The translations under genes were made by a program, and so were the position numbers. The notes under the pieces were generated by a model that worked only from the letters and a program-made list of their open reading frames with translations, was not told where the DNA came from and ran no database searches. DNA of 64,000 bases from assembly GCA_963971405.1 (NCBI GenBank), contig OZ020493.1, positions 2,108,001 through 2,172,000 of the forward strand, in the 5' to 3' direction. Shown here in pieces: positions 23,014 to 58,725 of this stretch; within the stretch, counting starts at the first letter, position 1, and each line of letters begins with the position of its first letter. This DNA comes from Psococerastis gibbosa (lineage: Eukaryota > Arthropoda > Insecta > Psocodea > Psocidae).

Positions 23014-23391
<378 letters not shown>

Positions 23392-29842: not shown

Positions 29843-29883
29843 AGGTAGCCCTATTTTTTGTTGGTAGTAGTCGGATTAATAGG

Positions 29884-36123: not shown

Positions 36124-36504
36124 CTTGAAATCGTCGTAAAAACTAAAAAATTATAATTTATCATTATCGCAATCGATATGCATATATACAAACATGCATA
36201 TAGGCCTATATGACATTTTGAACATGGGGTAGTATTAGACTAAGGGGGTCATGAACGAAATTGCAAACATAAGAATGAAAGAGCGGTTAGTTCCTGCTAT
36301 ATGCTCTTCCATACAAATCTCCATGCCTGGTGAGAGCTAGTGCTCATCGGAAGCTGTATCAGGACTGGAAAAGAAGAAAAAAATTAAAACTCTATATTCG
36401 ATGCATAGGCCTACCGGCACTGTGTATTTCGAATTTGTATATTGTTCGAATCAATAATAAATAACGTATTTGCTTTCAAGATAACGTACAATTTGACCCC
36501 CAAA

Positions 36505-37978: not shown

Positions 37979-38276
37979 CGTCATCATGTGTGTCAACTCC
38001 AACATCAAACTCGATATCAAACAGAAATTCCTCCTCCGTCGCCTTTCTAGCCAGTCCAAATTCTTCTGCTATCAGCCGGCCAATGCTGCGCCCCTCCGCA
38101 TCAAATAAATTGACCTTATATGTCCGACCACCGAGCAAAGAGGGCGCCACATCAGTCGGCAACACTCGGGCCCAACAATGATCATCGTTATTCCCACAAT
38201 GAACGTAAATCTGATCTATTATGCTTTTTGGGCATTGGGGAATATTCCAAATCCCACCCAGCTGACATTCGATTGC
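37979..38276 (-). CDS. TDRD12: TDRD12-like exon h: end of the extended Tudor domain
   Basis: Acceptor TTTTGTTTTAG|GCAATC (phase 0) and donor GATGACG|GTAAGT (phase 1), 298 bp. Joined to exon g it gives LPFQ-AIECQLGGI, the conserved L-P-x-Q-A-x-x-C-x-L of extended Tudors. It continues HCWARVLPTDVAPSLLGGRT, YKVNLFDAEGRSIGRLIAEE, FGLARK, and then an acidic tail (ATEEEFLFDIEFDVG). The exon does not end the protein. The next exon was not recognised downstream. Confidence 0.87.
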
Positions 38277-38379
38277 CTAAAACAAAATGTTTATCTAGTA
38301 TGTTGATTAAGTCGGCATAAACCAGGCGCGGGGTTAGAAATTTTTAACGGGGGAGGAGAGGCAATGATACTTGAGAAAA

Positions 38380-38745
38380 TTCGTCTTAACCGCTGGGCCC
38401 GACAAGAACAGTTCATCTATATCCTTTACTTATATGCTTTTATAGTGACATGATTCATATAGCTAGACAGGTTAGCACAGCTACACAACTATCTAACCGA
38501 ACAGGTCTGTGAGCTTACTTAATTGCATAAGACAATGCTTCATTCATTATATTAAACGAAATTAGAGGATATTTAAAAACTGGACTTGGTGTGGTTCAAA
38601 CCCACGGTCTATGCCTAGCCGGAGCGTCGTCTTAACGGCTGGACCACAATTTCGGTTACAACGAGGAGGTTACCTCTTCAAACAAAGTTAATTTAATGTC
38701 AGTGTTATATATACCATACAATACTGCAATATAAGGCAATAATAA
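38380..38745 (-). repeat. tRNA-like SINE family, second locus
   Basis: GTGGTTCAAACCCACGGTCT, then GGAGCGTCGTCTTAACGGCTGGACC, on the + strand is the reverse of the tRNA-like head at 5575-5690. A body half (GACAGGTTAGCACAGCTACA, AGGTCTGTGAGC) precedes it and a TATATAACACTGACATTAAATTAAC-type body follows. It lies in the last intron recognised of the TDRD12-like gene and is decayed. Confidence 0.6.
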
Positions 38746-38867
38746 TTAATTATCTTTTCCGTTATTCATGCCCACCCTTGTTAGCCGAAGCCTAATGAAA
38801 GGCGAACATTCAGCAAACATTAATTAATAGTCATGCCAATGGTTGGGCTGACAATTGTCCTCATAGT

Positions 38868-39215
38868 AATGATTCACTCTGAACAGCTAGGTCCAAAGGT
38901 AATACACGTGTGTACCAGTGCACCTTTAGCCTACTTCCATCAGTTGTGCGTCATTATTTGCCAATCAGAGCGCTATTTACATGTTCTTTAGACTACTGGG
39001 TAGGCTTGGTGAAGTGATATACGACTTGTAACGGCGACTTCGAGGGAAACTCCCAGACGACTCCAGACTACTGAGATATGAGAGAGAGAGTTGCGCCATG
39101 TAATTAGGGTAACTCTATTTGTAGTGTATTACATTGTATATATTTATCTTTAAGTTAAAGTATTGTGTACAGCCCTCTACATGGTCAAATAGACCATAAC
39201 ACAATTACTTGGCTT
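38868..39215 (+). repeat. Interspersed repeat, copy 1
   Basis: GATTCACTCTG, AGTAATACACGTGTGTACCA, GCCAATCAGAGCGCTATTTA and TTGTAACGGCGACTTCGAGG recur in order at 53885-54065. A shared end (TGGTCAAATA with flanking T-rich sequence) is at about 39180 and 54590. The nature of the element is not known. Confidence 0.65.
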
Positions 39216-39419
39216 CGTTTTATTTACTCATTAACAAAAAGAAAGTTTAGTGTTTAGCTAGCCTTCCAATGTCTCCCACATACCTAGCGCTAGTTCCCAG
39301 ATTGGCCCTGTGCAAAGAAAAATGTAATAGCACGACACCCCTTTGAGGGTCTAAGACTATTTCAGTTCGGCAGCCTTGCGATGTATGCAAGGACAAGGTA
39401 CCCTACAGTAGACCCAGCC

Positions 39420-39725
39420 CCAGGAAGAAACATAGGGAACACGAAGAAGGGGACGGCCAAGGGAAAGACACATCAGAAAAGTGATTGAGGACGATCTCAG
39501 AAAAGTGGACTGATACTAGAGGAAGTGCTGAATAGTCAGAGGAGGGAGAGGAGAGATTGGAAGAGGTCTAATAATTACACAATCGGACGTCCTCGAAAAC
39601 GCTGGAAGGATGAGTCGGAAACTGACCTCGCGAGTTGGGAGTCCGTTGTACAAAACCTAGATGACTGGAGGAGGTTGTCGAGCAGACCAAAGCTCATCAA
39701 GGGCTGTAGAGCCAGGGGAAAATGA
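39420..39725 (+). pseudogene. LINE 3' ends (ORF2 C-terminus), two overlapping frames
   Basis: RRGRPRERHIRKVIEDDLRK in one frame and IGRPRKRWKDESETDLASWE with DDWRRL in another. The G-R-P-R-x-R-W-x-D…W-R block is the usual C-terminal tail of several LINE clades. It lies 155 bp from a TDRD12-like exon, in the intron. Confidence 0.65.
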
Positions 39726-39768
39726 AGTATCAATCACTCCCGGACAACCAGAGCTGATTGTGGGCGAT

Positions 39769-39800
39769 AACGACGACGACGATAATGATGATGATGATGA
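39769..39800 (+). repeat. GAY trinucleotide run
   Basis: GACGACGACGATAATGATGATGATGATGA, a short microsatellite. Confidence 0.8.
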
Positions 39801-39879
39801 ACCCCGACCTTCCGTTCCATTGTCCAGTTGTCTGACAACTGCACTACTGAACCAGTACAGAGATCTACGCATACCTTAC

Positions 39880-40018
39880 CTGGAAAGGCAGACGGGCTAT
39901 TAAGTCGAGGGAAATGCGTGTAAGATTCGAATGCGCAACTTTGGATAGATCACCGTAGTCGACAAACAATACGATCACACTGTCGGCTGCTACATACTTC
40001 ACTTGTCCCCGGTTCCAC
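39880..40018 (-). CDS. TDRD12: TDRD12-like exon g: Tudor barrel
   Basis: Acceptor CTTGTTTATCAG|GTGGAA (phase 2) and donor TTCCAG|GTAAGG (phase 0), 139 bp. It reads RWNRGQVKYVAADSVIVLFV, then DYGDLSKVAHSNLTRISLDL, then LPFQ. W-x-R-x-x-V…V-x-F-V-D-Y-G-D is the core Tudor signature. The region that binds dimethylarginine in other Tudors is present in outline. It sits 155 bp from a LINE 3' fragment. Confidence 0.88.
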
Positions 40019-40029
40019 CTGATAAACAA

Positions 40030-41120
40030 GATAAACAAATAATATTAACAGCAATTAACTAATACAAAGGAGAGTCGAACAACTCACCGGAGCAAGAGGA
40101 AAAGTAATGGCCGAGCTCAAGACGTAAGCGTCCAACCGGGTCGAGTATAGGTAATAGGTCCGGTGTGACTCCCTCACTCTGCAACGGCACTAAGAGGGTA
40201 GAGGGAAGAATAAACTAATGCAAAGGAGAAAGGAGATATAATGGGCATACGACGGCCATTGGCATAGCTAGTGAAAACACAGTGTTTCTTCTTGAAAAAT
40301 TGAACAAATTGGCTTGCAGCAACTTGCAGTCCGAACAATTTCGACCCTGTGCCAATTTCTGTTGTTTCTAATGGTGGAAATGACCGTATGCATTATAGAT
40401 ATTAGTAAAGCCTATCAGCAAGCTAATAATTGCTGGTCTGATGGGATTTGGGAATTGCCTACCTAGTTCTCAAGGCAAATTTAAAAAAATTGCAACAAAG
40501 TTTAAAATTTTAATTTTAAATTTGTAAGTTTAGATAGATAGGTATCTTATAAAATACTAATGTAAAGATATAGATCGTGAAATGAGAGGAGAACGCAGCA
40601 AAGAACATTAATGAGTTTTGGAGGAGTTTGCGGCCACGCCCCCCCCCCCCACATCTTGTGCCCATGGCCACCGTTCCTTACAAATAAATCTGTTTCATTG
40701 TACTTGTTGTCATCTGGTACTGGTAGTCTGGTACATCAGATAAGCTAACGCTGCCTCCCGTAGTAGAACACATCAACTCAATCAGTCTATCTACTATATT
40801 ACTGTAATATATGATAATTAAGGTATTTTTATAAATAAAAAAACGCAATACAATTAATAAATATCCATGGGCGGTGGGCCCACTAAGTGCACCTGTGAAG
40901 GGGACATGCGTCGTGGCCCTTTTCCCCCAATTACACACTCGAATAATGGCCCAATATTCGATGCAATAAAAATTGGTTGAAGAAAAATTGGAATTGTAAT
41001 AACAAAAATTCAGATTCAATCGAATATTCGATCGAATTTAAGACACACGCCTTAAATTGGATCCAAAAATTTTGTAAACAAACCAACCATGGCAACCAAC
41101 GCCAACACGTAAACAATCGT
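40030..41120. other. Intronic DNA, nothing recognised
   Basis: Includes a C-run at 40639-40650. The minus-strand frames near 40678-41116 lack motifs. Confidence 0.4.
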
Positions 41121-41127
41121 TTTCAAA

Positions 41128-41301
41128 ATGGCGCCTAATGTGAAGTGGATGATGGAAATGACCAAATTATTATTTGAATTAATCCAGGAAGAGGAGCATT
41201 TATACGATAAACTAAACCCAGTTTACGCAAATAAATTTAAGCGACTCTCTTCGCAAGAGAAAATTAATAGGAAGATTAATGATGCATTTATTTCCCCATG
41301 A
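41128..41301 (+). CDS. Small MADF-like ORF
   Basis: 57 codons from an ATG in good context (AAAATGGCG). KLLFELIQEEEHLYDKLNPV, then YANKF and KINRKINDAF, fits the MADF pattern L-I-x-x-h…L-Y-D-x-x-x-x-x-Y-x-N. MADF proteins are found as arthropod transcription regulators and as the DNA-binding partner protein of PIF/Harbinger transposons. The stop comes right after the domain. It is probably a transposon relic, in a TDRD12-like intron on the other strand. Confidence 0.5.
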   Translation: MAPNVKWMMEMTKLLFELIQEEEHLYDKLNPVYANKFKRLSSQEKINRKINDAFISP

Positions 41302-41559
41302 TTTGTTTTCCCGTTGTCGCCTTCTGTATTAGGGGCTTAGCCCACTTAGCCATAATCGACAGTGCCTAAAGTTACTATTGTCGCTAACAGCGTGACGAAG
41401 TTACAATAGAATATTTATTTCATTTTTAACCGCAAGGTACAATACAATGTAGGGCATAGGTTCTAGACGTTGTCAATAATAAATAGCCCCAAAAAATTAG
41501 TTGTCTTAAATAGTCTAAATTATAAACTCCTGCACGGAGTAGGGGCAACTCTCCGCATA

Positions 41560-42060
41560 AAATGCATTCATTTTAAAGTGCTCAAGGAATGAATGGACGC
41601 CCTGTTTTCAAGTTATTGACTACGCTGTGTCCGGTATGAAGGGCTTGTGTGGAACTCACACTATTTATTGGATAATTTTTTAAAGAAAAAAGCAGATTAT
41701 GACAATAAAAATGCAACAAATGAGGCACCTTAAAATCTTCATAAATTTTAGTCGTCGGGGTTCTACGAGGCATAAATAAAGATATTTTTATTAATGAGTT
41801 CATAGCTACACAGATTTGTTTGATATAAGAATGGCTCCACCCGAAGTAGCAGCCACGGCATACTGCGCTATGGTCTGTGCTATCCCAAAATAAACCTGTC
41901 TCATTAATGTCTTTGACAAGATATTTTTCAATTCAACAAACATATATATAGACATCCGAAGGCGGCTTACAGATTGCTGTATTTGTAGGTGCTATTTTAA
42001 GTTTTCATCTATTAGTACACCAAGATATTTTGTATACGATACATTTCTAACCAAAAAACA
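41560..42060 (-). pseudogene. LINE 3' end
   Basis: The minus strand reads RQVYFGIAQTIAQYAV (the post-RT block L-x-x-Y-x-x-x-x-x-S-x-x-x-Y), then PRRTPTTKIYEDFKVPHL, then YCHNLLFSLKN and GRPF. This is the C-terminal part of a CR1-like ORF2. It meets a plus-strand LINE 3' end at about 42100, tail to tail or by nested insertion. Confidence 0.65.
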
Positions 42061-42099
42061 ATTATTACATCCATACAAATTATCACAGTTAAAGTCAAT

Positions 42100-42475
42100 T
42101 CTCTAGACAGAGTGGCGAGCATTCAAAGAAGTCAGCTAAAAATTATATACAAAAACGCAGTCCCGCAAGATCTCAATTTATTTAAAAAGTTAAAGTGTAT
42201 GACTGTTTATGACTTGTATAAATATAACTTGATAACAACGAACTACTACAGTAATGAATACAAAAGTCATACTGCAAGTTTAAGAAATGCGACAAGAAGA
42301 GAGGGTGTCCAATACAAAAGATTTATAGAACCAATGTATTATAACAAATATGGACAAGCCGAACTACGTGTAGCTATTCCGTCGGTGTTTAACGAATTAC
42401 CCGACGAACTACTCATAATACAAAATATTGGCTCAGTTAAAAAATTAATAACAAACTGGTTTTTTCAGTAACTAA
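42100..42475 (+). pseudogene. LINE 3' end, 119 open codons
   Basis: IQRSQLKIIYKN, KCMTVYDLYKYNLIT, SHTASLRNATRR, PSVFNELPDEL and a terminal KKLITNWFFQ. This is the typical end of a CR1/Jockey-type ORF2. It is truncated upstream, and an A/T-rich 3' UTR follows to about 42600. Confidence 0.75.
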
Positions 42476-42683
42476 CGTACAATGTCTTCTTTGCTTACTT
42501 GCAAAAGAACAAATAGTGTTTTCAGTAAATGTCTTTTAGTAAAGGAACTTTGGGTTTATAGACCTATTTAATATTTGGAAATTTTAAAATAAAAGTTAAT
42601 TATGTTTTGTTGTAAAATACATTTTAAAATCTTTACTTTTTCTATCTGAGGTGACATCTTGTATCCAAACTCGCCCAGACAAA

Positions 42684-43535
42684 CTTCCTGAACTTCTTAG
42701 ACCTCACCATAACCAAAAATAATAGCAACCTAGACTTCAAGATATTTCGTAAAGAAACCCATAGCGATAATGTAATCCCTGTTGACTCTTCTCACCCATT
42801 CCAGCATTCCATAGTATGATTTTTCGACTCCTTAACATCCCTATGAATGAAACCAACTATAATAATGAATTAATTACAATAAAACAAATTGCCCAAAATA
42901 ACAATTTCAATCTCAATCTAGTAGACAGAATTCTACGACATCACAAAATCAAACACAACCTCAAACTAACTTACCCCCCAGAGAGCATATAACAGGTATT
43001 GGAGACACCAACACCAACAGCACATTCGCGAAACACCTTAACTCAGAAAATCACACATTCGATCCTCACAATTGAACAGCCCTACACAAAATAAAGAAAA
43101 GTTACACTTTAATTTTTTTTCTGAAAATGTTGAAATTAAAAGAGCTTTACACAATAAGGAAAATTAACAAACGACACAACATTCACACAATCATCCCCTC
43201 TAATAGATCTAGCTAGTAGGTTAGGAATAGGTACCCAGCCACGCCCCCTCCCCCCGCTCCCAGTCCTATATAAACCAAGGTTTCCTCTCCCTAGTCACAT
43301 TTGCATCTTCTCCTCGAGTTGAACAAGTCCCAAATCGCAGATAAGGTGTAACTGTGCTAGTGGGTTCCCTCTGTAGATGGCAGTTCAGCGCTCAGGGTTT
43401 TTTACTAACCCAAGTGGGTTTCTTAGACAAAGTTAATTTCTTAACGATTATTTGGGTTTTACTAATTCGGGTTGTTATAACAAGTTTTTCTTAAACTCTA
43501 TGTTTTTGTAATTTTTTGTTTATTTCTGTTGATTA
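42684..43535 (+). mobile_element. Penelope-like element, 5'-truncated and internally deleted copy
   Basis: Begins at the FLDLTIT region of the RT and follows the 28441 copy through RKETHSDNVIPVDS. It then jumps over the GIY-YIG core to FAKHLNSENHTFDPHN and the shared 3' end. The internal deletion removes about 0.2 kb of the nuclease. It ends near GTTTTTGTAATTTTTTGTTT. Confidence 0.85.
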
Positions 43536-43589
43536 TATGCCCTTGGTCCGTGCAGTAACGGACGAAGGAAAATAATAAAAATAAAAAAA

Positions 43590-43985
43590 ATAATATCACA
43601 GTTCAAACAATTTTTGCAGAAAATTTTTAGTATTTTATTTATGGGTTGACCAGATTTAGAAAGAGAAAAAGTCATGTAATAGGTTTTGTCATAATTAAGT
43701 GACGACTTATTCTGACAATTCTGAACGTGGTTAAAAGCAAGTTGAGCTTTCGTAAAGGTATCTTCCCAGTCATCACCTGATACTACAATGGCACTAGCAT
43801 CGGCATAACTAATAATATGACTATCAATTTGGGCATCACAAAATTAAATTTCAAAAACTAAAAACAATATAGGACCAAGAACAGGACCTGGGACACCACA
43901 AGCAAACACTTCTTCCTCACTCAAAATGCTTAAAGAAGACAGCCTAACTCCCGAAACTCTGTTACTCAAGTAGGATTTTATTAAT
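43590..43985 (-). pseudogene. LINE reverse transcriptase fragment
   Basis: The minus strand reads LSEEEVFACGVPGPVLGPIL, then SHIISYADASAIVVSGDDWE and FTKAQLAFNHVQN. G-V-x-x-G-x-x-L-G-P-I-L-F is RT motif B. YADA replaces the usual YADD, so it is inactive. It is a short fragment between two Penelope-like copies. Confidence 0.75.
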
Positions 43986-43989
43986 TCGT

Positions 43990-44370
43990 ATCAAACTCCT
44001 CGTATACCGTAATTGTATAGATTGATTTATTGTAAATGATAAATCACTCCCCCCTGAAGTTCTGCCTACGGCTTTTTTAGGGAAGGCCCACTGCAGAAAT
44101 TAATTAAGTTCAACAATTGAGTTTTTGCGGTGCTGCAAAATTAAAATATCTAAATTAAATATTTCAATATTACGATATTGTTGTATGGGTGTAGCCTACC
44201 GTAATGTACTTTGGTATTATAATGTATTTCCTTCTTTCTTTCGGTAGGTTCCGGTGGAAAAATTACCCTTTTGAATCGAGTTTCGAAGCTTCACATTCCA
44301 GTTCATAATCCAGTTCTCCACCAACTGAACAATTCCACGCACCTAACAGCTACACCTGCAATGAACATAC
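43990..44370. other. Intronic DNA, nothing recognised
   Basis: AT-rich spacer 3' of TDRD12-like exon f in the gene's direction. Confidence 0.4.
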
Positions 44371-44487
44371 CTCCCGGAACCCCCATCGCGGGCAAGGCAA
44401 AATGCTCCGACTTCCAAAAGCAGCGGCTCCTTTTTCACGACTTCTCGGTCACCCATCTTTTGGCAATCGTTCTCCAAGGAGATGAAT
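44371..44487 (-). CDS. TDRD12: TDRD12-like exon f: extended Tudor, first half of the core
   Basis: Acceptor TTTGGTTCCAG|ATTCAT (phase 2) and donor CCGGGAG|GTATGT (phase 2), 117 bp. It reads FISLENDCQKMGDREVVKKE, then PLLLEVGAFCLARDGGSGR. The helix followed by V-G-A-x-C-x-A-R-D is the classic entry to a Tudor barrel. The opposite strand of this exon has a longer but meaningless open frame. Confidence 0.82.
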
Positions 44488-44489
44488 CT

Positions 44490-44836
44490 GGAACCAAAGC
44501 AATTATCAGCGTACTAAGATGCAAGACCGTATACAATACTTTACAATACATAATTTACTTACATTGTCTCGATTAACTCGGTTTCACAAGAGTGGGGGGG
44601 GGGGGGGGAATATCGGGCCGAGAAACCAGGTGGGCCATTATTGGATTTCACATTCCCCGGAGACGGACATATGGCACTTCATTCTAGTGAAGAGAAGTAA
44701 AAAAGGGAAGGGAAATAATATATTTTACACACACACATATAACGGTATTTACAAAATGAACGCAAACCACTTTGAATGTATTCGTGTAGACGGAATAGAG
44801 CTTATGGATGAGCACGGATAGCTTGGGTTAGTACTA
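44490..44836. other. Intronic DNA with a G-run
   Basis: A G-run at 44594-44608 and an AC microsatellite-like patch near 44728. No gene. Confidence 0.4.
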
Positions 44837-46270
44837 TAAACAAAAACTTAGAGTTTTAGAAAAACTTGTTATAACAACCCGAATTTTTAAAACCAAATAA
44901 TCGTTAAGAAATTAACTTTGTCTAAGAAACCCACTTGTGTTAGTATAAAACCCTGAGCGCTTTCGGCAAGAACTGCCATCTACAGAGGGAAACCCACTAG
45001 CAATGCTACACATTATCTGCGATTTGAGACTTGCTCAACTCGAGGAGAAGATGCAAATGTGACTAGGGAGAGGAAACCTTGGTTTATATAGGACTGGGAG
45101 CGGGGGGAGGAGGGGGTGGGACCAAAAATAATAGTACCCTAGACTTCAAGATATTTCGTAAAGAAACCCATAGCGATAATATAATCCCTGTTGATTCTTC
45201 TCACCCATTCCAGCACAAACACGCAGCATTCCATAGTATGATTTTTCGACTCCTTAACATTCCTATGAATGAAACCAACTATAATAATGAATTAAATACA
45301 ATAAAACAAATTGCCCAAAATAACAATTTCAATCTCAACCTAATAGACAGAATCCTACGACATCACAAAACCAAACACAACCTCAAACTAATTTACCCCC
45401 CAGAGAGCTTAAACCCGGTAACCAATAAACCATATTTCAGGATACAATACATAGAAAAAATCACAGAAAAAATAAGTAACCTCATTTCTTCTACAACAGA
45501 CAAAACACCAGCCCCGTACAACCGCAACAATTTGGCCAATAAACTCATGAACTGCAAAACCAAACCAGAAAAGGAAAAAGGCAATGGAGTTTATCGTCTA
45601 AATTGTAACGATTGTAACGCAATTTACATAGGCCAAACAGGCAGAAGCTTTAAAACTAGGGTCAGAGAACATATAACAGGTATAGGAGACACCAACACCA
45701 ACAGCACATTTGCGAAACACCTTAACTCGGAAAATCACACATTCGATCCTCACAATTGGACAGCCCTACACAAAATAAAGAAAAGTTACACTTTAAATTT
45801 TTTTGAAAATGTTGAAATCAAAAGAGCTTTACACAATAGGGAAAAATTAACAAACGACATAACATTCACACAATCATCCCCTCTAATAGATCTAGCTAGT
45901 AGGTTAGGAATAGGTAACCAGCCACGCCCCCTCCCACCCCCTCCTCCCCCCGCTCCCAGTCCTATCTAAACCAACGTTTCCTCTCCCTAGTCACATTTGC
46001 ATCTTCTCCTCGAGTTGAACAAGTCTCAAATCGCAGATAAGGTGTAACTGTGCTAGTGGGTTTCCCTCTGTAGATGGCAGTTCTTGCCGAAAGCGCTCAG
46101 GGTTTTATACTAACACAAGTGGGTTTCTTAGACAAATTTAATTTTTTAACGATTATTTGGGTTTTACTAATTCGGGTTGTTATAACAAGTTTTTCTAAAA
46201 CTCTAAGTTTTTGTTATTTTTTGTTTATTAAAATGAAATACCACGAAGTCACGAGTAATCTAATTATTTA
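44837..46270 (+). mobile_element. Penelope-like element, 5'-truncated copy flanked by its own inverted 3' end
   Basis: The right part (45119-46270) is a sense copy from NNSTLDFKIF through the GIY-YIG nuclease to the 3' terminus. The left part (44837-45113) is the reverse complement of the last 275 bp or so (45955-46235). The element therefore has long inverted ends, joined where a G-rich stretch (GGGGGGAGGAGGGGGTGGG) meets ORF sequence. Such inverted attachments are known for Penelope-like elements. Confidence 0.88.
45079..45969 (+). CDS. Penelope-like GIY-YIG endonuclease region
   Basis: 296 open codons. The first 18 come from the G-rich junction and are not native. KIFRKETHSDNIIPVDSSHP follows, with the GIY-YIG motif at about residues 171-200 (GVYRLNCNDCNAIYIGQTGR) and FAKHLNSENHTF downstream. 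It is nearly identical to the 28745-29842 copy (for example KTKHNLKL for KIKHNLKL), so the two copies are of recent common origin. Confidence 0.9.
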   Translation: MVYIGLGAGGGGGGTKNNSTLDFKIFRKETHSDNIIPVDSSHPFQHKHAAFHSMIFRLLNIPMNETNYNNELNTIKQIAQNNNFNLNLIDRILRHHKTKHNLKLIYPPESLNPVTNKPYFRIQYIEKITEKISNLISSTTDKTPAPYNRNNLANKLMNCKTKPEKEKGNGVYRLNCNDCNAIYIGQTGRSFKTRVREHITGIGDTNTNSTFAKHLNSENHTFDPHNWTALHKIKKSYTLNFFENVEIKRALHNREKLTNDITFTQSSPLIDLASRLGIGNQPRPLPPPPPPAPSPI

Positions 46271-46504
46271 TGGGTTAGTACTGGGCAGTAGGTCAACACG
46301 ACAATCAAATTGATGCAATGCACAAAAAAAAAAAAAATAAGATCAGGAAGTTATGCATTCCAAAATTTGAACTATTGCCTAACGCTTAAAAAGCTAAGTA
46401 TGATTTGCTATGCATTAAAAGAAAACTGGTCCTTAAATATGGACTATAATCTTAGGGTAGGGATAGGAATAACTATTTCACAGAATTACAATATTATATA
46501 TGAA

Positions 46505-47180
46505 TTCAAAAGAAATCGTTGGAGCCGTTTTTGAGAAATATTTTTTTTAGACGTTTTTTTTTAGTTTTTGAGAATAAAACCCCCCCCCCCCCCCCCCAAA
46601 TCTTACGAAGTCTTACACATTGCAGCATAGCAAAGCGGATACCTGGACCCGGTCAAAAACTCTGTAGTATAGTAGTTAGCTTGTGCAGGCTATTTCCCCG
46701 CCGAATAGCGTACTTATCTTGTGCATGCTACACTAGCAGCCATATTGTAACGGTCTCCAGCTATGGCATCGTTGAATATCCATTTTATAATCAAAGCCCG
46801 GCGTCTCGTACTTGTTCCGTATTTGACTTGTATTATTTCAAATAATTGCAGTTTTACCTATTTCCGGTTTTACCTATTAAGTGTTGAGCTTCTGACTAAA
46901 GTGCATTTCATTACAAAAGTTGGAGGTTTTTCTTCCCTGTGGGGCACGTAAAAATGTTCTAATGTTCTAAAAGGTATGTTTTTAATTGCTTCATCCACAA
47001 ATTTTAGACCTAATGTAATTGTAATTTTTGGTTTTGTCAATAGTGTAAGCATGTCTACGCCTATACTATACCCTTCTATCGATTTTTACTATACCACTGC
47101 GGTTTAAAACGTATATTACGAACCCTCTGCAAAGAAATTTCCAGGCCAGTCACGTGACCCCCTCCGGTTAGGCCTTAATT
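46505..47180 (-). repeat. Long interspersed repeat, inverted copy with permuted blocks
   Basis: On the minus strand the middle block of the 17835 copy (GGAGGGGGTCACG to GTGTAAGACTTCG) comes first. A G-run and the block TTTTATTCTCAAAAA...CAAAAACGGCTCCAACGATT, which precedes the middle block at 17835, come second. The order is reversed relative to the other copy. Confidence 0.7.
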
Positions 47181-47334
47181 AATCAGTTTTGGCAGAGATA
47201 TTTAACAAATTATCATGTGTATTATTATTATCATTATCATTCAAATTATAAAAATAAAATAAAATATGGAAAATTAAAAAAGAATTAAAAACTCATTAAA
47301 TTCAAATATAGACTACCACCGTAGTCAATATAAT

Positions 47335-48880: not shown

Positions 48881-48889
48881 TCAGGTAGT

Positions 48890-50080
48890 AATGTGCTTGC
48901 ACTTGTGCGAGTCTTTACACGCCATGCGATCGGAGACGTGTCGTAACTCAACACATGTACTTATCTACAGAGGCGACTGAAGAGGTCAATCGGATACATT
49001 CATTAAATTGTTTGTATGCGATTAATCTTTATTTAAAAAATGATCCCTACATTCGAATTTTTTACTTCTTTAACAATGTATAGAGAAATAATAAGAGTGC
49101 CGATTAAGACCCTTGTTGAATTCTTCTGGAATTAACAACCGAAGGCTCAGAGTTTGCATATTTATAATTTATGTATGTTTTTCCATCACGAGAAAATCAT
49201 AACAGTGCCCCTCTGAACCACTAATACCAAAATTGTGCAAATTTTCATGTAATAAAGATGTACTCTACTTTATTTTACATATATAACTAGCGAATTTTCC
49301 TTAAACCACTGTCACCCACACTAGTTAACAAATTTATAAGGTTAGGGTTAACTGACCTACACGAGACTAATAAAAAAGCTAATTTGAAGACTGAAATTTA
49401 AAACAAGACCTTATAGCGCACTGTGCTATGGCCCCTGAAAAATTGACCTCGGTAGTACCATTTATTAGCATTGCAAGTTGAGCAGAGAGGCAAAAGTCAC
49501 AGTGTATAAATGCTTTTAAGACGGGTCAATTTATGCGGGAAAAGGTACCCGACAAAAAGCTTCGTCTAGCTCGGATTGCTAGTCTTCACAACAATCCACT
49601 AGCAACGAGCTCACCCAATGTTATTTGGTTTTTGGAGCGTTGTGAAATAGGTGTGCCGATTTAGTGACTTAAGTGTGATAAATTTATTATAAATTGTTTT
49701 TGGAAAAAGAAATGAACACTATTAATTCGTTGTTAGAAAAACTTTTTTCTACCCTCCCCCTTGAACGTAAGCTAGAGGTTAAGAAATTGGGATGGCCTTT
49801 GTTTCAGTAAAAGTAGTATAATAAAGGTAGAGGACCTTAGCCTATTGAATCACTCACTGCTCCGATGCAACACCCATTGACAAAAACCGCGAGCCACCAC
49901 TGATGGTTTGTCATTGAAAATGACTAAAGACAAGTACATTGTGTATATTATATATCTCCTCCAATATCACTCAATAACCGAAAGCTTGAGTGTAAAATAT
50001 TACTCTTTGAAAAATTGTCAATATTGTCCCTTGCCTGGGTTATCCGTTGCCGGAGAAGGAAAAAGGTGAGGGGATGTTGA
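48890..50080. other. Intronic DNA, nothing firm
   Basis: A short frame at 49711-49812 (MNTINSLLEKLFSTLPLERK…) looks helix-like but is only 33 codons and has no known relative. Otherwise nothing is recognised. Confidence 0.35.
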
Positions 50081-50086
50081 GTGAAA

Positions 50087-50837
50087 GGCTCTCTGGACAC
50101 GATGCGTTTTTCCCAAGCGTTCTAGGTGCGTTTTACTAAGGTCAAAAGGCACAATTTTAACGTAGTGAAGGGCACAATATACGATGCGTTTTTCCCGACG
50201 TTAAATCGTCAGTCCGCCATTTTTGTTTATTGTTATTTTTGCTTAAAAATACAGTGCAAAACTAATTTTTTAACATGCCTAGATCCAAAGGAAGAAGAAA
50301 AAGACTATATTTGCTGCAATGCTCCTAATTCTACAGATGAAGCTCGAAGAAGAGCAACGACATGATAGACAATAAGTTAAATCACGGTTTTTACTAAATG
50401 TAAGTACGATTACTCCGATGTTAGACTTATTAAGGAGCTGCAGTTAATGACAAGTAATTTTTCCTAATTTTGTTAAAATAATTGGAATGTTTCATGTGCC
50501 AGAGGCACGGAAATGACTCAAACGCATCGAAAAATTCAGACAAAATATCTTGTTGTAGTTGCTCCGCCATTTTGTCTCTTTTGATAGTAAACAAATCGTG
50601 GAAGCAGACATTTTTAGTAGCAAAATAGCAGGGATTTTGTGTTTCTCATGTTGCCCGCCTAACCGACGAGCAAACGCATGCGTCAAGAAATCGGTTCATT
50701 TCTAATTCCAAATAGCGCGTCCAAGCGTTTTACCGGTGCGTTTTCTCACTGGTGCCGTGTATATGCACGTTAAAACACAACGTTTTTCCTAAACGCTTGG
50801 GAAAAACGCATCGTGTCCCGAGTCTCTAAGAGAGCCC
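50087..50837 (-). mobile_element. PIF/Harbinger-like deletion derivative
   Basis: Terminal inverted repeats: GGCTCTCT…GGACACGATGCGTTTTTCCC at the left. The right end, inverted, is GGGCTCTCTTAGAGACTCGG and then GACACGATGCGTTTTTCCC. A TAA follows the right end, as expected for a 3-bp TTA/TAA target, but the left flank does not show it. Internal sub-copies of GATGCGTTTTTCCC occur at 50187. It carries a MADF-like ORF on the minus strand but no transposase. Confidence 0.65.
50430..50570 (-). CDS. MADF-like protein remnant inside the Harbinger-like element
   Basis: 46 codons: MAEQLQQDILSEFFDAFESF, PCLWHMKHSNYFNKIRKNYL, SLTAAP. F-x-x-x-x-E-x-x-P-C-L-W…Y-x-N-x-x-R is the MADF core. PIF/Harbinger transposons encode a MADF/Myb-type DNA-binding partner besides the transposase, which fits the terminal repeats. 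The C-terminal part is missing. The ATG has good context (AAAATGGCG). Confidence 0.6.
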   Translation of the reverse strand: MAEQLQQDILSEFFDAFESFPCLWHMKHSNYFNKIRKNYLSLTAAP

Positions 50838-50877
50838 TAACTTCCCAACATTCATTAACAGAACAACTAAGTCATTA

Positions 50878-50930
50878 TTTATTTATTATTATTTATTTAT
50901 TATTATTTATTTATTATTAATTATTACTAA
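50878..50930 (+). repeat. ATTTATT-type simple repeat
   Basis: Tandem ATTTATTATT/ATTTATTTATTATT units, just downstream (in gene direction) of the TDRD12-like exon e donor. Confidence 0.8.
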
Positions 50931-50943
50931 AATTCGTACTTAC

Positions 50944-51064
50944 AACCCATTAAACTGGCGGTCTCTCAGATATACCGCGTGTGGGCCGTCAGCTCCAATA
51001 AAATTAACCCCAACAAAATCCTTGTGAAAATGGGCCCAGCGCGGTCGGAATGGCTCCAACTTCT
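50944..51064 (-). CDS. TDRD12: TDRD12-like exon e: start of the extended Tudor domain
   Basis: Acceptor GTTGGTTTAG|AGAAGT (phase 1) and donor GGGTT|GTAAGT (phase 2), 121 bp. It reads KLEPFRPRWAHFHKDFVGVN, then GADGPHAVYLRDRQFNG. The P-x-x-x-Y-x-R pattern is the first strand of extended Tudor domains (…P-x-x-F-Y-V-x…). It follows exon d without a stop. Confidence 0.78.
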
Positions 51065-51069
51065 CTAAA

Positions 51070-52620
51070 CCAACACAAAAACAACAAACTTTATCACAGC
51101 ATTGTATTGCATTATTGTAATTATGAATGCGATCAAAACACAAACCAGGCAATTAGCTCCGAGTTTACATAGGACCCTTAATAGGGCTCTTTATGAACGG
51201 ATGTTCTCACGCCTCAAATTTTTCGCCAGGTTGGACATGCACTGCAAGAAAAAATAATAATAATACACGAATATTCTCATCATTCTCGAAATTTAATATT
51301 CTTAGCCTTAATACTAAGAATACTTGTAGGATACATCTAGATCCCTACTTTTTAAGAGGCTCTCACAGATTTGATTAAGAGTCAAGAAAGCCAGACCTAT
51401 CGAGATGAGGTCCTTGGTAAAGTTGAGCTTAGTGACGATACTCCGGGGAATCGTGAGGTGACGCATATTCAGATTAGCATGAGAATCACAATTCGTTTAA
51501 ACGTGAAAAATTTTTCAAGATTAAAGTAAAGGAAACACGAATATCAAAAAATTAAAAAAGAAAAATAGAAGGGAATGAGATTACAAAGAAAGTCGCCAAT
51601 TTTAGATATTTTGTAACCCCAATTGTACCATCTTTAAAATAAAATATATCTACTGCTTGATATCTTGGAAGCACAACTATTTTTTTTCTTTTGATTTAGC
51701 CTTATTCGACTCGGCACTTCAGAATTTATTTCGGCTCCAATTAAAAGGGGTATGAACTGTAGCCTAGGGCAAAAGCCTTAATCCGGCCCTGGTGCCACCT
51801 ACTGTGCATCCAATTTATTTTCACTCGGTCCACGCAAGACTATTCAATTATTCAATTGCTTAAGACAAATGAGTGCAAAACGCGGGAAATTAAAATTAAT
51901 AAATTAATCCTCGGCTATATTTTTGGTGAGTTTTAAATTATTCTCCCATAGATGTAAACGCTATAATTAAAATTCGTATTATATTTCAAATTTCTTTCTG
52001 TACATTTTAATGTTTATTAGTATTCCCTTCAATTATCAAATGTATGTAAGTGCATGTAAATAAACAAAGTACAAGACACAAATCAACAATAAAACAATGC
52101 AAACATTTTCTTGTATTCTAATAATTTATTAATTTGAATTTCTCGCGCATATTTTAACCTTACCCCTTACTAATCCAGCATTAAAAAATAAACCACGGTA
52201 TTTTATAAACCCCGTTGTTACGTTAATCCCAAACCGCCATAATAGGGCATATGCTCCTTGTGCCTTACAGCATAAACCTTCACTACGAGCTCAGTCACGA
52301 TACTCCGGGCAAACGTCAGATAACATGGTCATGCTGAGGGGCTACTTGACGATCAGCACTCCCGAGAGGGCCAGCTATACCCTAATCTACATGGGCGTAG
52401 CTAGGATTGGATCCAGAGGGAGGCAAGTGCAAAAGTTCAATTACAACGGTTGATTTTCGGTGGTTTCTTTCAAATTTTTTGGAATATAAACATTAAAACC
52501 TTGTTTATTATATCTAGTTGAAATTCCCCTTTTTTATATTGTGTAATGAAACACGATACACACACACACACACCCCGCATCTCTCTGCCTGCGCCCATGC
52601 TACCCTACTATATTTATTTA
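51070..52620. other. Intronic DNA, nothing recognised
   Basis: AT-rich. A CA-type dinucleotide run lies at 52557-52575 just before exon d's donor side. No other feature stands out. Confidence 0.4.
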
Positions 52621-52629
52621 TAAACTCAC

Positions 52630-52882
52630 TCGGGTCAAGCGCAAGTCCAAAGTTCTTGTGTTGCGCAGCAATACTCTTCTCTACGAGGTCCTGGACATAG
52701 CCGAATATACTATCAATTTCTTCCATTTTCTGGCTCAATCGACTGACTATTTTGCCGTCATCACTTTCCAGTCGTTTGAGGAGGCTCAAGATTGACTTCT
52801 TCTGCATTTTCTGCATTTTCGACTCTTCATCAAGGTAAATCAAAATTTTGACGTCCTCATCAGATTTTATATCATTTTCGTC
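52630..52882 (-). CDS. TDRD12: TDRD12-like exon d: post-helicase linker
   Basis: Acceptor TATTATTTCCAG|GACGAA (phase 0) and donor CCCGA|GTGAGT (phase 1), 84 codons plus one base. It is acidic and helical: DENDIKSDEDVKILIYLDEE, then KKSILSLLKRLESDDGKIVS, then AQHKNFGLALDP. The ILIYLDEES…LLKRL pattern matches the stretch following the helicase in TDRD12. An upstream candidate micro-exon near 52980-53012 was not adopted because its phase fits poorly. Confidence 0.75.
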
Positions 52883-53290
52883 CTGGAAATAATATAAACG
52901 TTTTTCTAAATCATATTCATGTATATTTCCGCAAAAGAAGAACATATTGACATTAATAACTAAACAGCAGGCACTCACCCACGGGTAGCTTACTATCAGA
53001 AAATGTTACCTAGTATATGAATATCAGAATTCCTGTTGCGGGATTTAATTGAATTGAAAGGACTTTATTGAAATACCAAAAGGCTAAGACTAAAAAGTCT
53101 TATTTTCATGCTAACCCTAAAACAGATTGGATAATTAATAGATATACATATAATTTAATCTTGAAGAAAAAGAAAAAAACGGGAGAGAAGGAGAGGAAAT
53201 AAAAGGATGAAGTATATGCAGGGGGATTCATTTTTACCACAATTACCAGACCGGAGCAAGTATTAAGCGTTATCTAAGATATATTTTTAA

Positions 53291-53506
53291 TTATATTCTT
53301 AAATCTACTGAGTGAATTAGCTGAGCTGCCCTAACCTCCAATGGTAGGCGGTTCCAGTGGCGAAAAGTGTATAGTACTGTAGATTGCTCATGTCTTGAGG
53401 TCTTATGTAGTGGCATTTCGTATGTTGTGCCATTGCGCTGTGTCTGTAATTTTGTATATGTTTGTGTGATGTAGGAAGGTGAGCTAGAGTGGGTTACTTT
53501 GTACAT
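53291..53506 (-). pseudogene. LINE 3' end
   Basis: MYKVTHSSSPSYITQTYTKL, RNGTTYEMPLHKTSRHEQST, and then FRHWNRLPLEVRAAQLIHSV. The W-N-x-L-P-x-x-V-R block is the terminal signature of R1/Jockey/RTE-type ORF2. It is in a TDRD12-like intron, same strand as the gene. Confidence 0.75.
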
Positions 53507-53574
53507 TAGTATCAGTGATGCGTGGTATTGTGTTCTTTGATCGGTGATTAGAAAATTTACTACTTTGTACTGTG

Positions 53575-53757
53575 GTTTTAAGACGAATTGATGCAGGAGT
53601 CGCGTTGCTGGTGACGGTTAAGAAACAGGAACTAACATATTTCGGCCATGTGATGAGGAATAAAAAGTATTGTCTTCTGTATGTAATAATCCAAGGGAAG
53701 ATAGGACAGAGGGCTCCAGGCAGAGGAACATCCTGCAGACATTGTGTATGGAATTAA
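53575..53757 (+). pseudogene. LINE 3' end of another clade
   Basis: VKKQELTYFGHVMRNKKYCL, LYVIIQGKIGQRAPGRG. L-x-Y-F-G-H-V-x-R…L-x-x-x-I-x-G-K-I…G-R-G is the C-terminal tail of many arthropod LINE ORF2s. It is oriented opposite to the fragment just left of it. Confidence 0.75.
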
Positions 53758-53879
53758 CCCTCTTGATTGCAGTTAGATGAATTTTCATCGGTAAAATCTA
53801 ATCTTCACTGCTGTCCAAATGTGTGAAACCAAAATATTTCAGCCAATTTGTTGTGCTGACAACTGAATGAACTGATGAT

Positions 53880-54620
53880 TGAATGATTCACTCTGGACAG
53901 CTAGGCCTAAAAGTAATACACGTGTGTACCAGTGTACCTATAGCTTGCTGTCATCAATTGTGCGTCAATATTAGCCAATCAGAGCGCTATTTACATGTCT
54001 TTTAAACTACTGCTGAAGTGGAACAAGATTTGTAACGGTGACTTAGAGGGCAATTCCCAGGCAATGCTGAGGCAACTACCAAGCAGAAGGTTCAGCCGTT
54101 CAGACGAAAAGAAGAAGAGAGAGATAACCAAAATGTTATTAGGGTAAGTTGTGGTTTGTTTGTTTTCCAACGCCTGCTTTCAGCATTTCTGCTTTCAGCA
54201 ACACTCTCAGCCTGGCGGGGGGAGTGAGTCTGTTTATTAACTTGAGGTAACCTAAGGGCAGACTCTTTCACCTCGGGGAGAAGAGGAGTTGACTGACAGG
54301 GTGGATGGACCTCCTTAGTGAATTCTGAACAACTAGGGGAACATATTGAAGTCACACGATTAATTTGGAGCTGACCAGGACTCGACACGCACATAGACTG
54401 ACTAGTATAGTCTCAGCACGTTATCATGTCCCACCCTGTTCCCCTGCCAACGCTGTGCACACCACCAAGTTTGCCGCAGTTTGGAACAGGCTCTGTTCTC
54501 GTGAACATAACATGGTATGGCCGTTAGCAAGTGTATATTTAGCCTATATATTGTTATATTGTACGTAGTATATTAGTCATTGAGTCCATTTATTTGGTCA
54601 GCCTCCTACGCGGTCAAATA
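53880..54620 (+). repeat. Interspersed repeat, copy 2 (with an extra internal block)
   Basis: Matches 38868-39215 at both ends. About 0.4 kb in the middle (54070-54530) is unique to this copy. Confidence 0.55.
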
Positions 54621-54639
54621 ACAAATTTTCGGAAAATAC

Positions 54640-54960
54640 CACCGGATGCCCCTGTCCGCAGTTTTAAATTAATCTTCGATGGTAAAATCTAAACCTTGCT
54701 GCTATCAAGCGTAAAACTCATCAATTCTATTTTATCCTGATTATTATAAATCTAAACGTTGCTGCTATCAAGAGTATACAACTCCTCCATTCTATTTTCT
54801 TCTGATTAATTCCCGGGAGGGACTCTTGCACCCCTGCCTGCAGTTTTATGCATATACGCTGGCAACATGCAAACATTACTGCTATCAAAAAACCCACTAT
54901 TTTTTTTTAAAAAATGCCTCGGCGGTCACCCCTCGGCCCCCCTGTTTGCAGGTATAAAAT
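54640..54960. repeat. Diverged minisatellite units
   Basis: AACATTGCTGCTATCAA-type and TAATTCCCGGGAGGGACTCT words are reversed, decayed versions of the 15350-16250 units. No full palindromic core remains. Confidence 0.5.
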
Positions 54961-55040
54961 GTGTAGTAGTTGCTTATACTTTGCAGTTGAATACAGTGGC
55001 TATAACTTTACTATATTTAACGCTAGTATTGTACTATTGA

Positions 55041-55178
55041 AAGAAACCGGGAACCCCCCCCCCCCCCCCCCTCAAAATTCCGTGTGGGTATACGGGTGTA
55101 CGGCTTTACACTGGCAGATGAAATAAATTATCTTATAAAATAATGATAGGTGATCCCTTCCCCCCCCCCCCCCCCTCA
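55041..55178. repeat. Two long C-runs in a duplicated context
   Basis: C-runs at about 55045-55062 and 55162-55177, each followed by CTCAAA. They lie 150 bp before the TDRD12-like exon c donor. Confidence 0.7.
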
Positions 55179-55333
55179 AAGGCAAGTTCTAGATCCTCCT
55201 CTGCTCATTATCATAAGGAATATATGTTGCGTTTGAGCTTCTATGTACTTAGTGGCATATCAATGCGGAACTTGTGCTGTGTTTCTTTTCAATGTAGGTG
55301 AAGTTGCTTCTAGAATTCCTTGAAGCATCTTAC

Positions 55334-55533
55334 CTTTTCGGATTCATTGAAATGGTTGCGATAGTGATCCATAACCAAACAAAATCGCGTACCAAGCATA
55401 TCCTCGGATTTGAAGGGGATACTGTAATGAAATAATAAGGTCGCATCATGGATTCGAAACCCTTCAATCGTGAACGAGTCGTCCGTGCACAAGAGGAGCG
55501 GATAAGCTGTCGTCCGCCATTTTTGTTGAACAA
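55334..55533 (-). CDS. TDRD12: TDRD12-like exon c: helicase lobe 2, motifs V-VI region
   Basis: Acceptor TTTTTTCAG|TTGTTC (phase 1) and donor GAAAAG|GTAAGA (phase 0), 66 codons after the split codon. It reads VVQQKWRTTAYPLLLCTDDS, where LLLCTDD parallels motif V (…T-D…). Next is LLFHYSIPFKSEDMLGTRFC, parallel to the hYdxP…Y-x-x-R-x-G-R stretch of motif VI, and then LVMDHYRNHFNE. The second arginine finger is not evident. Joining to exon b gives YLD-VVQQ without a stop. Confidence 0.85.
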
Positions 55534-55849
55534 CTGAAAAAATCACAAATTAAATTTGAGGGGGAAGAGACAATATTAGGGGCGATCTGAGAAAGACCAA
55601 AGGTGTAGAACTGAATTGTAATTTTTTAAGGACTTTTTAAGGACCCTAATTAGTGGCCCATAGGTCCCTTGTCCAATGTCAACGACCCCATGAATTTCGG
55701 ACATTATTTGTATTGTTTCCTTATGAATTTTTGGCCATTGGCTAACTGGTAATCTGGTATAAGTTCTCGATGTCAACCTACACTGGCTACAAGCGATAAT
55801 GGACAAGATGAGACAAACCTACGCAATGAAACGGGTGAAATCATGACTT

Positions 55850-56285
55850 AACCATGTACAGATACGAGTCTGTAGAACTGAAACTGAAGGCAGTGGAAAA
55901 TGGTCGGAAAAAGGAGATGCCGGAAGAAGACAAAAGTTTTGTACGATACACGAAGAGGACGGCCAAGGGAGCGGTGCAGAAGCCAGGGTGAGGGAAATTT
56001 CAGGAGGGTGTCGAACTGGAACTGAAGGAAGTGGTGAATAGTCAGAATTGGAGAAACAGGAAGAAGCGGAGAAGGTTCATACACCAACGTACGAAGAAGA
56101 GGATGGCTACGGAAGGGAGACTTCGGAAGAGACTACGGAAGATAGACGGATGGGAGCTACGACTGTATGGAGACCTGATTAAAGGCTGGGGCAAGATGGA
56201 GTGGACGAGGCTAATACACCACCCCCTGGGGCGATTAAGGGCGATTATTGATGATGACGGAGATGAGTATGAAGATAATCAATGA
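55850..56285 (+). pseudogene. LINE 3' end, possibly duplicated
   Basis: YTRRGRPRERCRSQ in one frame, then RLRKRLRKIDGWELRL and KMEWTRLIHHPLGRL in another. Both are variants of the Arg-rich C-terminal tail also present at 39420. AACTGAAGGCAGTGG/AACTGAAGGAAGTGG words suggest two tandem copies. Confidence 0.55.
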
Positions 56286-56371
56286 TCCTGACAATGTTGT
56301 TAATCAATAAACTAAACTGTGCAACATAGTTTGTATCATAATGTAGAGGAAGGTATCCATGTGACATAAAA

Positions 56372-56565
56372 TAAATAATAAATAATTAGATTACTCGTGA
56401 CTTCGTGGTATTTCATTTTAATAAACAAAAAATAACAAAAACTTAGAGTGGGTTTCTTAGACAAAGTTAATTTCTTAACGATTATTTTGGTTTTACTAAT
56501 TCGGGTTGTTATAACAAGTTTTTCTAAAACTCTAAGTTTTTGTTATTTTTTGTTTAATAAAATAA
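56372..56565. mobile_element. Penelope-like 3' end as a foldback
   Basis: A reverse copy of the last 65 bp or so (ATTAGATTACTCGTGACTTC to AAAACTTAGAGT) is joined to a forward copy of about 110 bp (GGGTTTCTTAGACAAAGTTA to TTTGTTTAATAAAAT). The whole can fold on itself. It shows the same arrangement as the 44837-46270 copy but without any ORF. Confidence 0.85.
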
Positions 56566-56569
56566 ATAA

Positions 56570-57160
56570 GTAAAAATGACATATTCGGTAGTCGACTTAC
56601 CCCTTTGAAACCCTATTTCATAATCAAGATTATCAATAATCAGCTCGATGTGTCCGGGCATGATGCGGACACTCCATCAAGTCACTCTGATTCACTTTGC
56701 GTGTCTAAACCATTGCAGTCTCCTTCTCCCCCTCGTTTCCACCATTCCACCTTTGGTTATTTCTCCCTGAACCTTCTTCCCAAGACTTAATTTCTAGTCA
56801 TATCCCTTTGTAACCTCTGAAGGCCTTCAGACAATAGATTTTAGTCTGCGGACCTAGTCTGCCTGTTCACTAGGTATTCCACATAGTTGGAATTCCAAAA
56901 CACCGCCAACCGCGTCACCGAGCTAGTCTGTCAGACTAGCTAGCTCATGTATGCGATTTAATGTGCGGCACACCAATGACTTCGATAGTGACTAAGGGGA
57001 TTCGCGAACTGTTCCGATGAACTCCATATAAGCCGCATGTGTTCCACTGTCTTGCTTGTTATTCATTACCACCATCGCCCAACAGTACTTGATATTACGC
57101 AAAAAACTAATCATAATTCTGAGCCAATAAAAAATAAAATAAAAAGTTAGAAACTGCACG
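56570..57160. other. Intronic DNA, nothing recognised
   Basis: Between TDRD12-like exons b and c. No repeat or frame was identified. Confidence 0.4.
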
Positions 57161-57163
57161 TAC

Positions 57164-57530
57164 CATCCAAATAAAATTGCGGCATGCCCCTACACAAAAC
57201 CAGCGGCTCGTATCCCCGATGCTGCAGGGCCACCGCCAGCTTAAGGACCTCACTCTTCCAGCAGCACACCACGGCAATGCGGCGTTTCCCGATTTCACCA
57301 ACTATCTCATCGACAGCAGTGCACAATTTTTTCTCGTTGTCTACCGTATGAACTATGGGCTTGAGTCGAGCGTAGATAGCGGCCTCTGTGTACGAGCCCA
57401 GATGCAGGCTGTACTGCCCAAAGTTCTTCATCATTTCCCACACTTTCTCCGACAAAGTCTCTGCAGCCACGATGTACTGGATGGGCTGCACCCTCGCCTT
57501 CTTCTGACTCAAACGCATGATTGATTTGAC
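57164..57530 (-). CDS. TDRD12: TDRD12-like exon b: end of helicase lobe 1, start of lobe 2
   Basis: Acceptor GTTGATTAG|GTCAAA (phase 0) and donor TTGGATG|GTACGT (phase 1), 122 codons plus one base. It reads VKSIMRLSQKKARVQPIQYI, then VAAETLSEKVW (where helicase motif III, S-A-T, would fall) and LGSYTEAAIYARLKPIVHTV. The second lobe starts with KRRIAVVCCWKSEV, then LAVALQHRGYEPLVLCRGM (motif IV-like). This layout and wording match TDRD12 rather than active DEAD helicases. The frame continues cleanly from exon a (FSKA|VKSI). Confidence 0.85.
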
Positions 57531-57534
57531 CTAA

Positions 57535-58490
57535 TCAACAAATAATAATTTTATATATAATACATAATGACATAAGTCTTTATAGAAAATAATAGATTCA
57601 GCGCGATTAGGGCCTGAGTCCCTCAATATCACTAAACTGTATGCAACAACTAGTTAAAGGTATAATATTTATCTACATAAAATTGCATGCATACCGAATA
57701 TCAGTCACATTCGCCACAATCCTTATTCATTTTCTCGATCATTCACACACAGCCCTGCCTTGATCAACCGGTGAAAGTGACTTGCTGGCTAAGGAGAAAC
57801 TGGTAATATTTGGTTTTGAAAACGTTGAGAGAAATTAGATATATGCAGAAGTAGTAGAAAGCTCATTTTGTAACATGGTTTATTAGTGATAAAGGGTTAT
57901 TTTACTATTAATTTTTAATTACCATTCACTCTTGGGACAAGGTAAGTGTATTCAATTACATTTTTATGGGCAATTCGTGTCGTCCGTGGCATAGTGTGGT
58001 ATGTTGTCGTTGCATGAAATTCGGACACCCCACCAAAAAAAAAACTGGCCACACCACTGGGAGGGACAGGAGGTAGTGGAGCAGACTCGACTCACCTAAT
58101 GGCGTATTAGACTTGGGCAACTCGAAAAAAAACATCCTCACTTCACTCGTCGAAAAGGTTGCTTTGCAAAGAAATAAATGATAACAGGACAATGTCGGGG
58201 TTAAGCGATTAGAATAACAGTGACCCCAGTAGTAGTAGCAGTAGCAACAGTAACTCTAACTTAGGAATCCAGTTTTCCGTAAATTGAATCCGCTGCTAGC
58301 ATGGCTGTTGCCAATGAAATGGTCTTCTTTAAAACTTCCTTAAGGACATAGTTATAGATAGTCTCCGAAATTATCTGATAGGCGTAGGAAGCACAGCACA
58401 ACTGCCTCAACAAATCCGTAAATGTTGACAATGGTAACAAACTATACAGTAGATTATATCACTAAAGACTAAATGACAATGAAAATACGT
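57535..58490. other. Intronic DNA, nothing recognised
   Basis: Between TDRD12-like exons a and b. The short minus frames have no motifs. Confidence 0.4.
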
Positions 58491-58494
58491 CCAT

Positions 58495-58550
58495 TTTTAT
58501 CGGGAATCGAACCCAGCGCCTCCAATGGGTGGCGTAGCACTCTGCCAGGT
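58495..58550 (-). repeat. tRNA-like SINE head fragment
   Basis: The minus strand reads CTGGCAGAGTGCTACGCCAC, then GGAGGCGCTGGGTTCGATTCC. A-box-like TGGCAGAGTGC and a perfect B-box GGTTCGATTCC are 33-34 bp apart. It is not a full tRNA: the acceptor stem is missing. It starts 25-70 bp inside the intron after TDRD12-like exon a and creates a false open-frame extension of that exon. Confidence 0.65.
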
Positions 58551-58569
58551 AGTCAAGCATTTCACTCAC

Positions 58570-58725
58570 TGCTTTGGAAAAATGAGGTGACGCCGCAAGG
58601 GCATTAAAGTCGTCCAACACAAGCCACTTGAGCCGATCAAAAGAGGTAACGCGGCGCACGCCCAGCAGACGAGCCAAACAGTTGGGAGTCCCAATCAGCA
58701 GCTCACAGCCCATGAGCACCTCAAC
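58570..58725 (-). CDS. TDRD12: TDRD12-like exon a: helicase motifs Ib to II
   Basis: Acceptor TTGTTGACAG|GTTGAG and donor AAAGCA|GTGAGT, phase 0 at both ends, 52 codons. It reads VEVLMGCELLIGTPNCLARL, then TSFDRLKWLVLDDFNALA. GTPNCLARLL corresponds to the TPGR region of DEAD helicases. LVLDDFNALA sits where VLDEAD would be, so Asp-Glu-Ala-Asp is replaced by Asp-Asp-Phe-Asn. The preceding exon with the P-loop should lie at a higher coordinate but was not recognised within 58726-64000. The exon is visibly more GC-rich than its flanks. Confidence 0.82.

Follow-up and report, generated by a model that had tools for sequence, protein, structure and literature searches.

A partial, probable TDRD12-family gene, with a degenerate DEAD-box helicase core joined to an extended Tudor domain, in Psococerastis gibbosa

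Introduction

TDRD12 proteins of mouse, zebrafish, silkworm and sea urchin share a layout in which a degenerate DEAD-type helicase is followed by a Tudor domain (PMC12147562, PMC5485951). TDRD12 is tabulated as Tudor plus DEAD/DEADH in PMC12147562, the zebrafish protein is listed with two Tudor domains, a DEXDc domain and an ACD in PMC5485951, and sea urchin TDRD12 is named in PMC12925329. As to function, mouse TDRD12 is described as required for slicer-triggered piRNA making (PMC5481186), and Tdrd12 in silkworm cells as localizing to granules that resemble nuage (PMC9962485). The fly members of the family are Yb, BoYb and SoYb of Drosophila; in Yb, an N-terminal Hel-C (33-133 aa) precedes the DEAD region (391-740 aa), according to PMC10243637. 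TDRD9/Spindle-E likewise combines a helicase with Tudor and belongs to the piRNA pathway; its helicase is described as DExH (PMC4232550), and it is tabulated as Tudor with DEAD/DEADH, HELICc and HA2 (PMC12147562).

Here, we analyze a 64,000-nucleotide stretch of P. gibbosa DNA (the window) and assign, with high confidence, eight exons on its minus strand to a TDRD12-family gene, either an orthologue or a paralogue, that is incomplete in the window and apparently intact, and in which a degenerate DEAD-box core is joined to an extended Tudor domain. Like the TDRD12 proteins above, the predicted product has a decayed DEAD-type helicase ahead of Tudor; their N-terminal Tudor domain, motifs Q and I and C-terminal ACD/CS domain were not found for it within this window. 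Nor did we see here the Hel-C of Yb, or the DExH helicase and HA2 domain of TDRD9/Spindle-E. The closest solved structures by sequence, TDRD1 and TDRKH for the Tudor part and eIF4A for the helicase core, each have one half only.

Results

Eight exons on the minus strand form one open chain

The original prediction had placed eight exons with consensus splice sites on the minus strand, in phase at all seven junctions, and this part of it was borne out. Joined between 58725 and 37979, the exons give 550 codons without a stop, with phase kept at 7/7 junctions (entry phases 0, 0, 1, 0, 1, 2, 2 and 0 for exons 1 to 8). Every acceptor ends in AG (8/8) and every donor begins with GT (8/8), the donors reading gtgagt, gtacgt, gtaaga, gtgagt, gtaagt, gtatgt, gtaagg and gtaagt from exon 1 to exon 8. 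The peptides that the prediction had quoted were also recovered inside the claimed exons: six of the seven motifs occur once each on the minus strand, and LPFQ occurs there twice, in exon 7 (39880-39891) and at 20207-20218.

Since the exon borders were picked with phase in view, the open 550-codon chain is not a blind test. As a chance control, AG..GT segments were drawn at random from the same strand, with lengths similar to those of the exons and with transposon frames included, and joined eight at a time; none of 20,000 such chains was open in any frame, and we rejected a chance origin of the eight-exon chain on this basis. Single short open exons, on the other hand, are weak evidence, because segments of ~117 bases picked at random had an open frame in 1,820 of 5,000 cases as well.

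Support for the joins that is independent of phase comes from sequence homology, which spans five of the seven junctions: 1/2 and 2/3 in the alignment to eIF4A, and 5/6, 6/7 and 7/8 in the Pfam TUDOR match. For junctions 3/4 and 4/5, and hence for exon 4 (52630-52882), a charged and probably helical linker, the evidence consists of splice consensus, open frame and phase; neither Pfam nor alignment to an approximate human TDRD12 segment (z 0.04) gave a homology match for this exon. As sequence features, the eight exons are confirmed.

The helicase half is of a degenerate DEAD type

Exon 1 (58570-58725; 52 aa) carries a motif Ib-like TPNC and a motif II-like LDDFN, exon 2 (57164-57530) a motif III-like AAET together with the first part of helicase domain 2, and exon 3 (55334-55533) the motif V region TDDSFTIEGFRI. 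The names Ib, II, III, V and VI are those to which we take these positions to correspond. When the whole 550 aa were searched against solved structures, eIF4A matched over aa 3-220, that is, across exons 1 to 3, with an E value of 3.6e-5; the helicase part searched alone gave a best E of 1.1e-5 over aa 6-219. In the alignment from the whole-protein search, eIF4A keeps intact catalytic motifs, its GTPGR facing GTPNC, its LDEAD facing LDDFN, its LSAT facing AAET and its STDLLARGID facing CTDDSFTIEGFRI. The alignment stops ahead of motif VI, and the rest of exon 3 contains no HRIGR-type sequence. In the exons read, helicase domain 1 is present from motif Ib onward only.

As to helicase type, the part searched alone matched 32 distinct sequences at E up to 10, 31 of the DEAD-box type plus one glutathione S-transferase, while the 34 distinct matches of the whole protein comprised 17 Tudor proteins, 15 DEAD-box helicases and two others. 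The DEAD-box matches include eIF4A, DDX48, Dbp5 and DjVLGB. Neither list names a DEAH/DExH helicase, save for 7am2, one of the 31, which bears the ambiguous label "DEAD/DEAH box helicase-like". These sequence matches support a degenerate DEAD-type rather than a DEAH-type helicase.

Weighing against the assignment, the helicase half matched weakly in the profile searches. The Pfam DEAD family was matched with an E of 0.0068 by exon 1 alone and of 0.0012 by exons 1 to 3 joined, its 19.1 bits lying below the curated cut-off of 26; Helicase_C (E 0.031) likewise stayed below its cut-off, at 15.0 versus 23.5 bits. With the whole 550 aa and E up to 1, DEAD was not listed; exon 2 alone gave no helicase match in Pfam, and exon 3 alone no match. 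Structure prediction for exon 2 alone had a mean pLDDT of 48.5, too poor for a fold search. Because DDFN replaces DEAD, AAET stands at the place of motif III and motif VI is absent, normal ATP-driven unwinding appears unlikely.

An extended Tudor domain follows the helicase

The extended Tudor region begins in exon 5 (50944-51064), the end of which falls within the Pfam TUDOR match at aa 359-459. This match, with an E of 8.8e-13 for the whole 550 aa, spans exons 5 to 8 and lies C-terminal to the helicase; combined with the eIF4A alignment of exons 1 to 3, it agrees with the helicase-to-Tudor protein originally proposed. Exon 6 (44371-44487), with VGAFCLARDGGSG, is covered by both the Pfam TUDOR match and an alignment to TDRD1 Tudor, and exon 7 (39880-40018) holds the Tudor core, WNRGQVKYV..FVDYGD..LPFQ, also within the Pfam match. 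Joining the exons sharpened the Pfam signal, from 5.2e-7 for exon 7 alone to 3.1e-13 for exons 5 to 8. The Tudor domain ends, with AIECQLGGI, in exon 8 (37979-38276), which probably also encodes the SN-like half that completes an extended Tudor domain; searched alone, this exon had no match in Pfam, and its structure prediction (mean pLDDT 49.6) was too poor for a fold search.

The best match among solved structures was to the Tudor domains of TDRD1 (8e-6). Two Tudor positions differ in this alignment, WNRG standing for WYRA and DYGD for DYGN. These differences make it uncertain whether this Tudor domain binds methylated arginine.

Assignment to the TDRD12 family and alternative readings

Our family assignment follows from the layout, since TDRD12 likewise places an extended Tudor domain behind a degenerate DEAD helicase. 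The placement rests on layout and on helicase decay, the only TDRD12 sequence compared being an approximate human segment. The helicase part of this segment is collinear with exons 1 to 3 at a score of 130, against at most 70 in 300 shuffles; its raw score exceeds that of eIF4A (116), but its z is lower (16.3 versus 19.1). The human segment also aligns beyond motif V, where the eIF4A match has ended, while its Tudor part scored 46, with shuffles reaching 52. We treat this alignment as a lead only. No TDRD12 was among the chains in solved structures matched by the 550-aa model, and a search for relatives in viral contigs yielded 10 stretches fitting the peptide pattern, none confirmed by tblastn. 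Of the "TDRD12/Yb-type" label first given to the gene, the TDRD12 part stands on the layout of degenerate DEAD helicase then Tudor, and "Yb" was dropped as a gene name, since PMC13172572 describes fs(1)yb as a duplicate of TDRD12 that is limited to Drosophila and its close fly relatives.

Three other readings were weighed against a TDRD12-family gene. The same decay of the helicase motifs could be expected of a lineage-specific or unrelated fusion between a degenerate DEAD-box helicase and Tudor, or of a TDRD12 paralogue that has diverged and taken on another role, and the lack of a significant alignment for the approximate human Tudor segment points the same way. Layout and decay taken together, however, agree with TDRD12, as does, as a lead, the stretch past motif V that the human segment covers and eIF4A does not; we regard this reading as very unlikely. 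A gene of the TDRD9/Spindle-E type, a DExH helicase plus Tudor, would have the same outline of helicase then Tudor and, like TDRD12, is tabulated with both domains. Its helicase would be of the wrong type, though: the matches are to DEAD-box proteins, with 0/34 and 0/32 named DEAH/DExH apart from the ambiguous 7am2, motif II reads DDFN rather than DExH, and a Pfam search of the 550 aa did not reveal HA2. On these grounds we rejected TDRD9/Spindle-E, which we rank as the most improbable of the three.

Alternatively, two genes might have been wrongly joined, one comprising helicase exons 1 to 3 or 1 to 4 and the other Tudor exons 5 to 8, or the locus might be a pseudogene. Junctions 3/4 and 4/5, at which homology support is lacking, are where such a false join would fall, and copies of a retroelement sit in the introns. 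Against this, splice consensus and phase hold at all junctions, neither a stop nor a frameshift interrupts the frame, and the order of the domains is that of a known family, which leaves this reading highly improbable. We retain a single TDRD12-family gene, partial in the window and apparently intact.

The ends of the gene

No start codon was found for the TDRD12-like gene in the window. A motif I pattern had 15 matches on the whole minus strand, none of them upstream of exon 1, and no exon for the first Tudor domain or motif I was recognized among frames of at least 28 aa read by eye at 58.7-64 kb; both may sit beyond the window. At the other end, reading by eye the minus-strand frames of at least 40 aa downstream of 37979 did not reveal a C-terminal ACD/CS exon. 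A candidate 3′ terminal exon on the minus strand (36297-36364), as yet unproven, would keep the phase of exon 8 and add 22 codons and a stop. Its acceptor, with a pyrimidine fraction of 0.94 compared with 0.56-0.83 for those of the eight exons, is the strongest among the 13 in-phase 3′ candidates listed; it shows no homology.

In human TDRD12, a zinc finger of the CCCH-like kind lies between the helicase and the Tudor part. Above 30 kb, a CCCH pattern occurred at one place (52105/52096, overlapping), which is hydrophobic and not convincing, and the interval from exon 4 to exon 5 offered three candidate exons of compatible phase, none of which contained CCCH.

Neighboring features in the window

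The strand opposite the TDRD12-like gene bears two exons (17561-17836 and 23041-23391, both plus) of an HP1-type gene, with Pfam matches to the chromo domain (4.5e-10) and the chromo shadow domain (7.4e-24). Just past the latter exon, an open frame at 23649-24215 (+) with a PHD finger (3.6e-6) is probably a LINE ORF1.

Several mobile elements were also seen. At 28443-30582 (-) lies a retroelement, presumably Penelope-like, in which reverse transcriptase and GIY-YIG domains were matched; fragments of it, 91-100% identical, occur in intron 2 (56377-56568), intron 5 (45070-46271, plus) and intron 6 (42682-43524, plus). We take an element at 1131-3437 (-), with RVT_2 (7e-21) and an integrase, to be Copia-like, and another at 7384-11678 (+), with RVT_1 (9.8e-30), RNase H and an integrase, to be gypsy-like. 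A repeat at 5512-5672 is related, at 85-88% identity, to 38556-38734 in intron 7. A tRNA match that overlaps it, at 5607-5679, is borderline (29.5 bits versus a cut-off of 29; E 0.045), and ARAGORN found no tRNA; the repeat pair is probably a tRNA-derived SINE. Upstream of exon 1, inverted repeat arms of 152 bases (60376-60527 and 61247-61398; 96.7% identical) probably form a foldback or MITE-type element.

Discussion

By analogy with its family, the protein encoded by the TDRD12-like gene would reside in germ-cell nuage, where its helicase-like core would hold a piRNA precursor or sliced RNA and its Tudor domain would dock a PIWI protein or another partner. Such a protein could act as a scaffold that passes RNA to the piRNA-making machinery, and we consider it probable that, in germ cells, it brings RNA together with PIWI partners in this way. 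With catalytic motifs so decayed (DDFN, AAET, no motif VI), one may speculate that this TDRD12 is an RNA clamp independent of ATP or purely a scaffold, and that its Tudor pocket may be unable to read methylated arginine, a combination we think rather unlikely.

TDRD12 is already on record from vertebrates, insects, sea urchin and a flatworm (PMC12147562, PMC5485951, PMC9962485, PMC12925329), and the finding, set beside these reports, alters no view for that reason. As one more TDRD12-type gene, it helps to annotate the piRNA pathway of this genome and to trace the decay of helicase motifs across the family.
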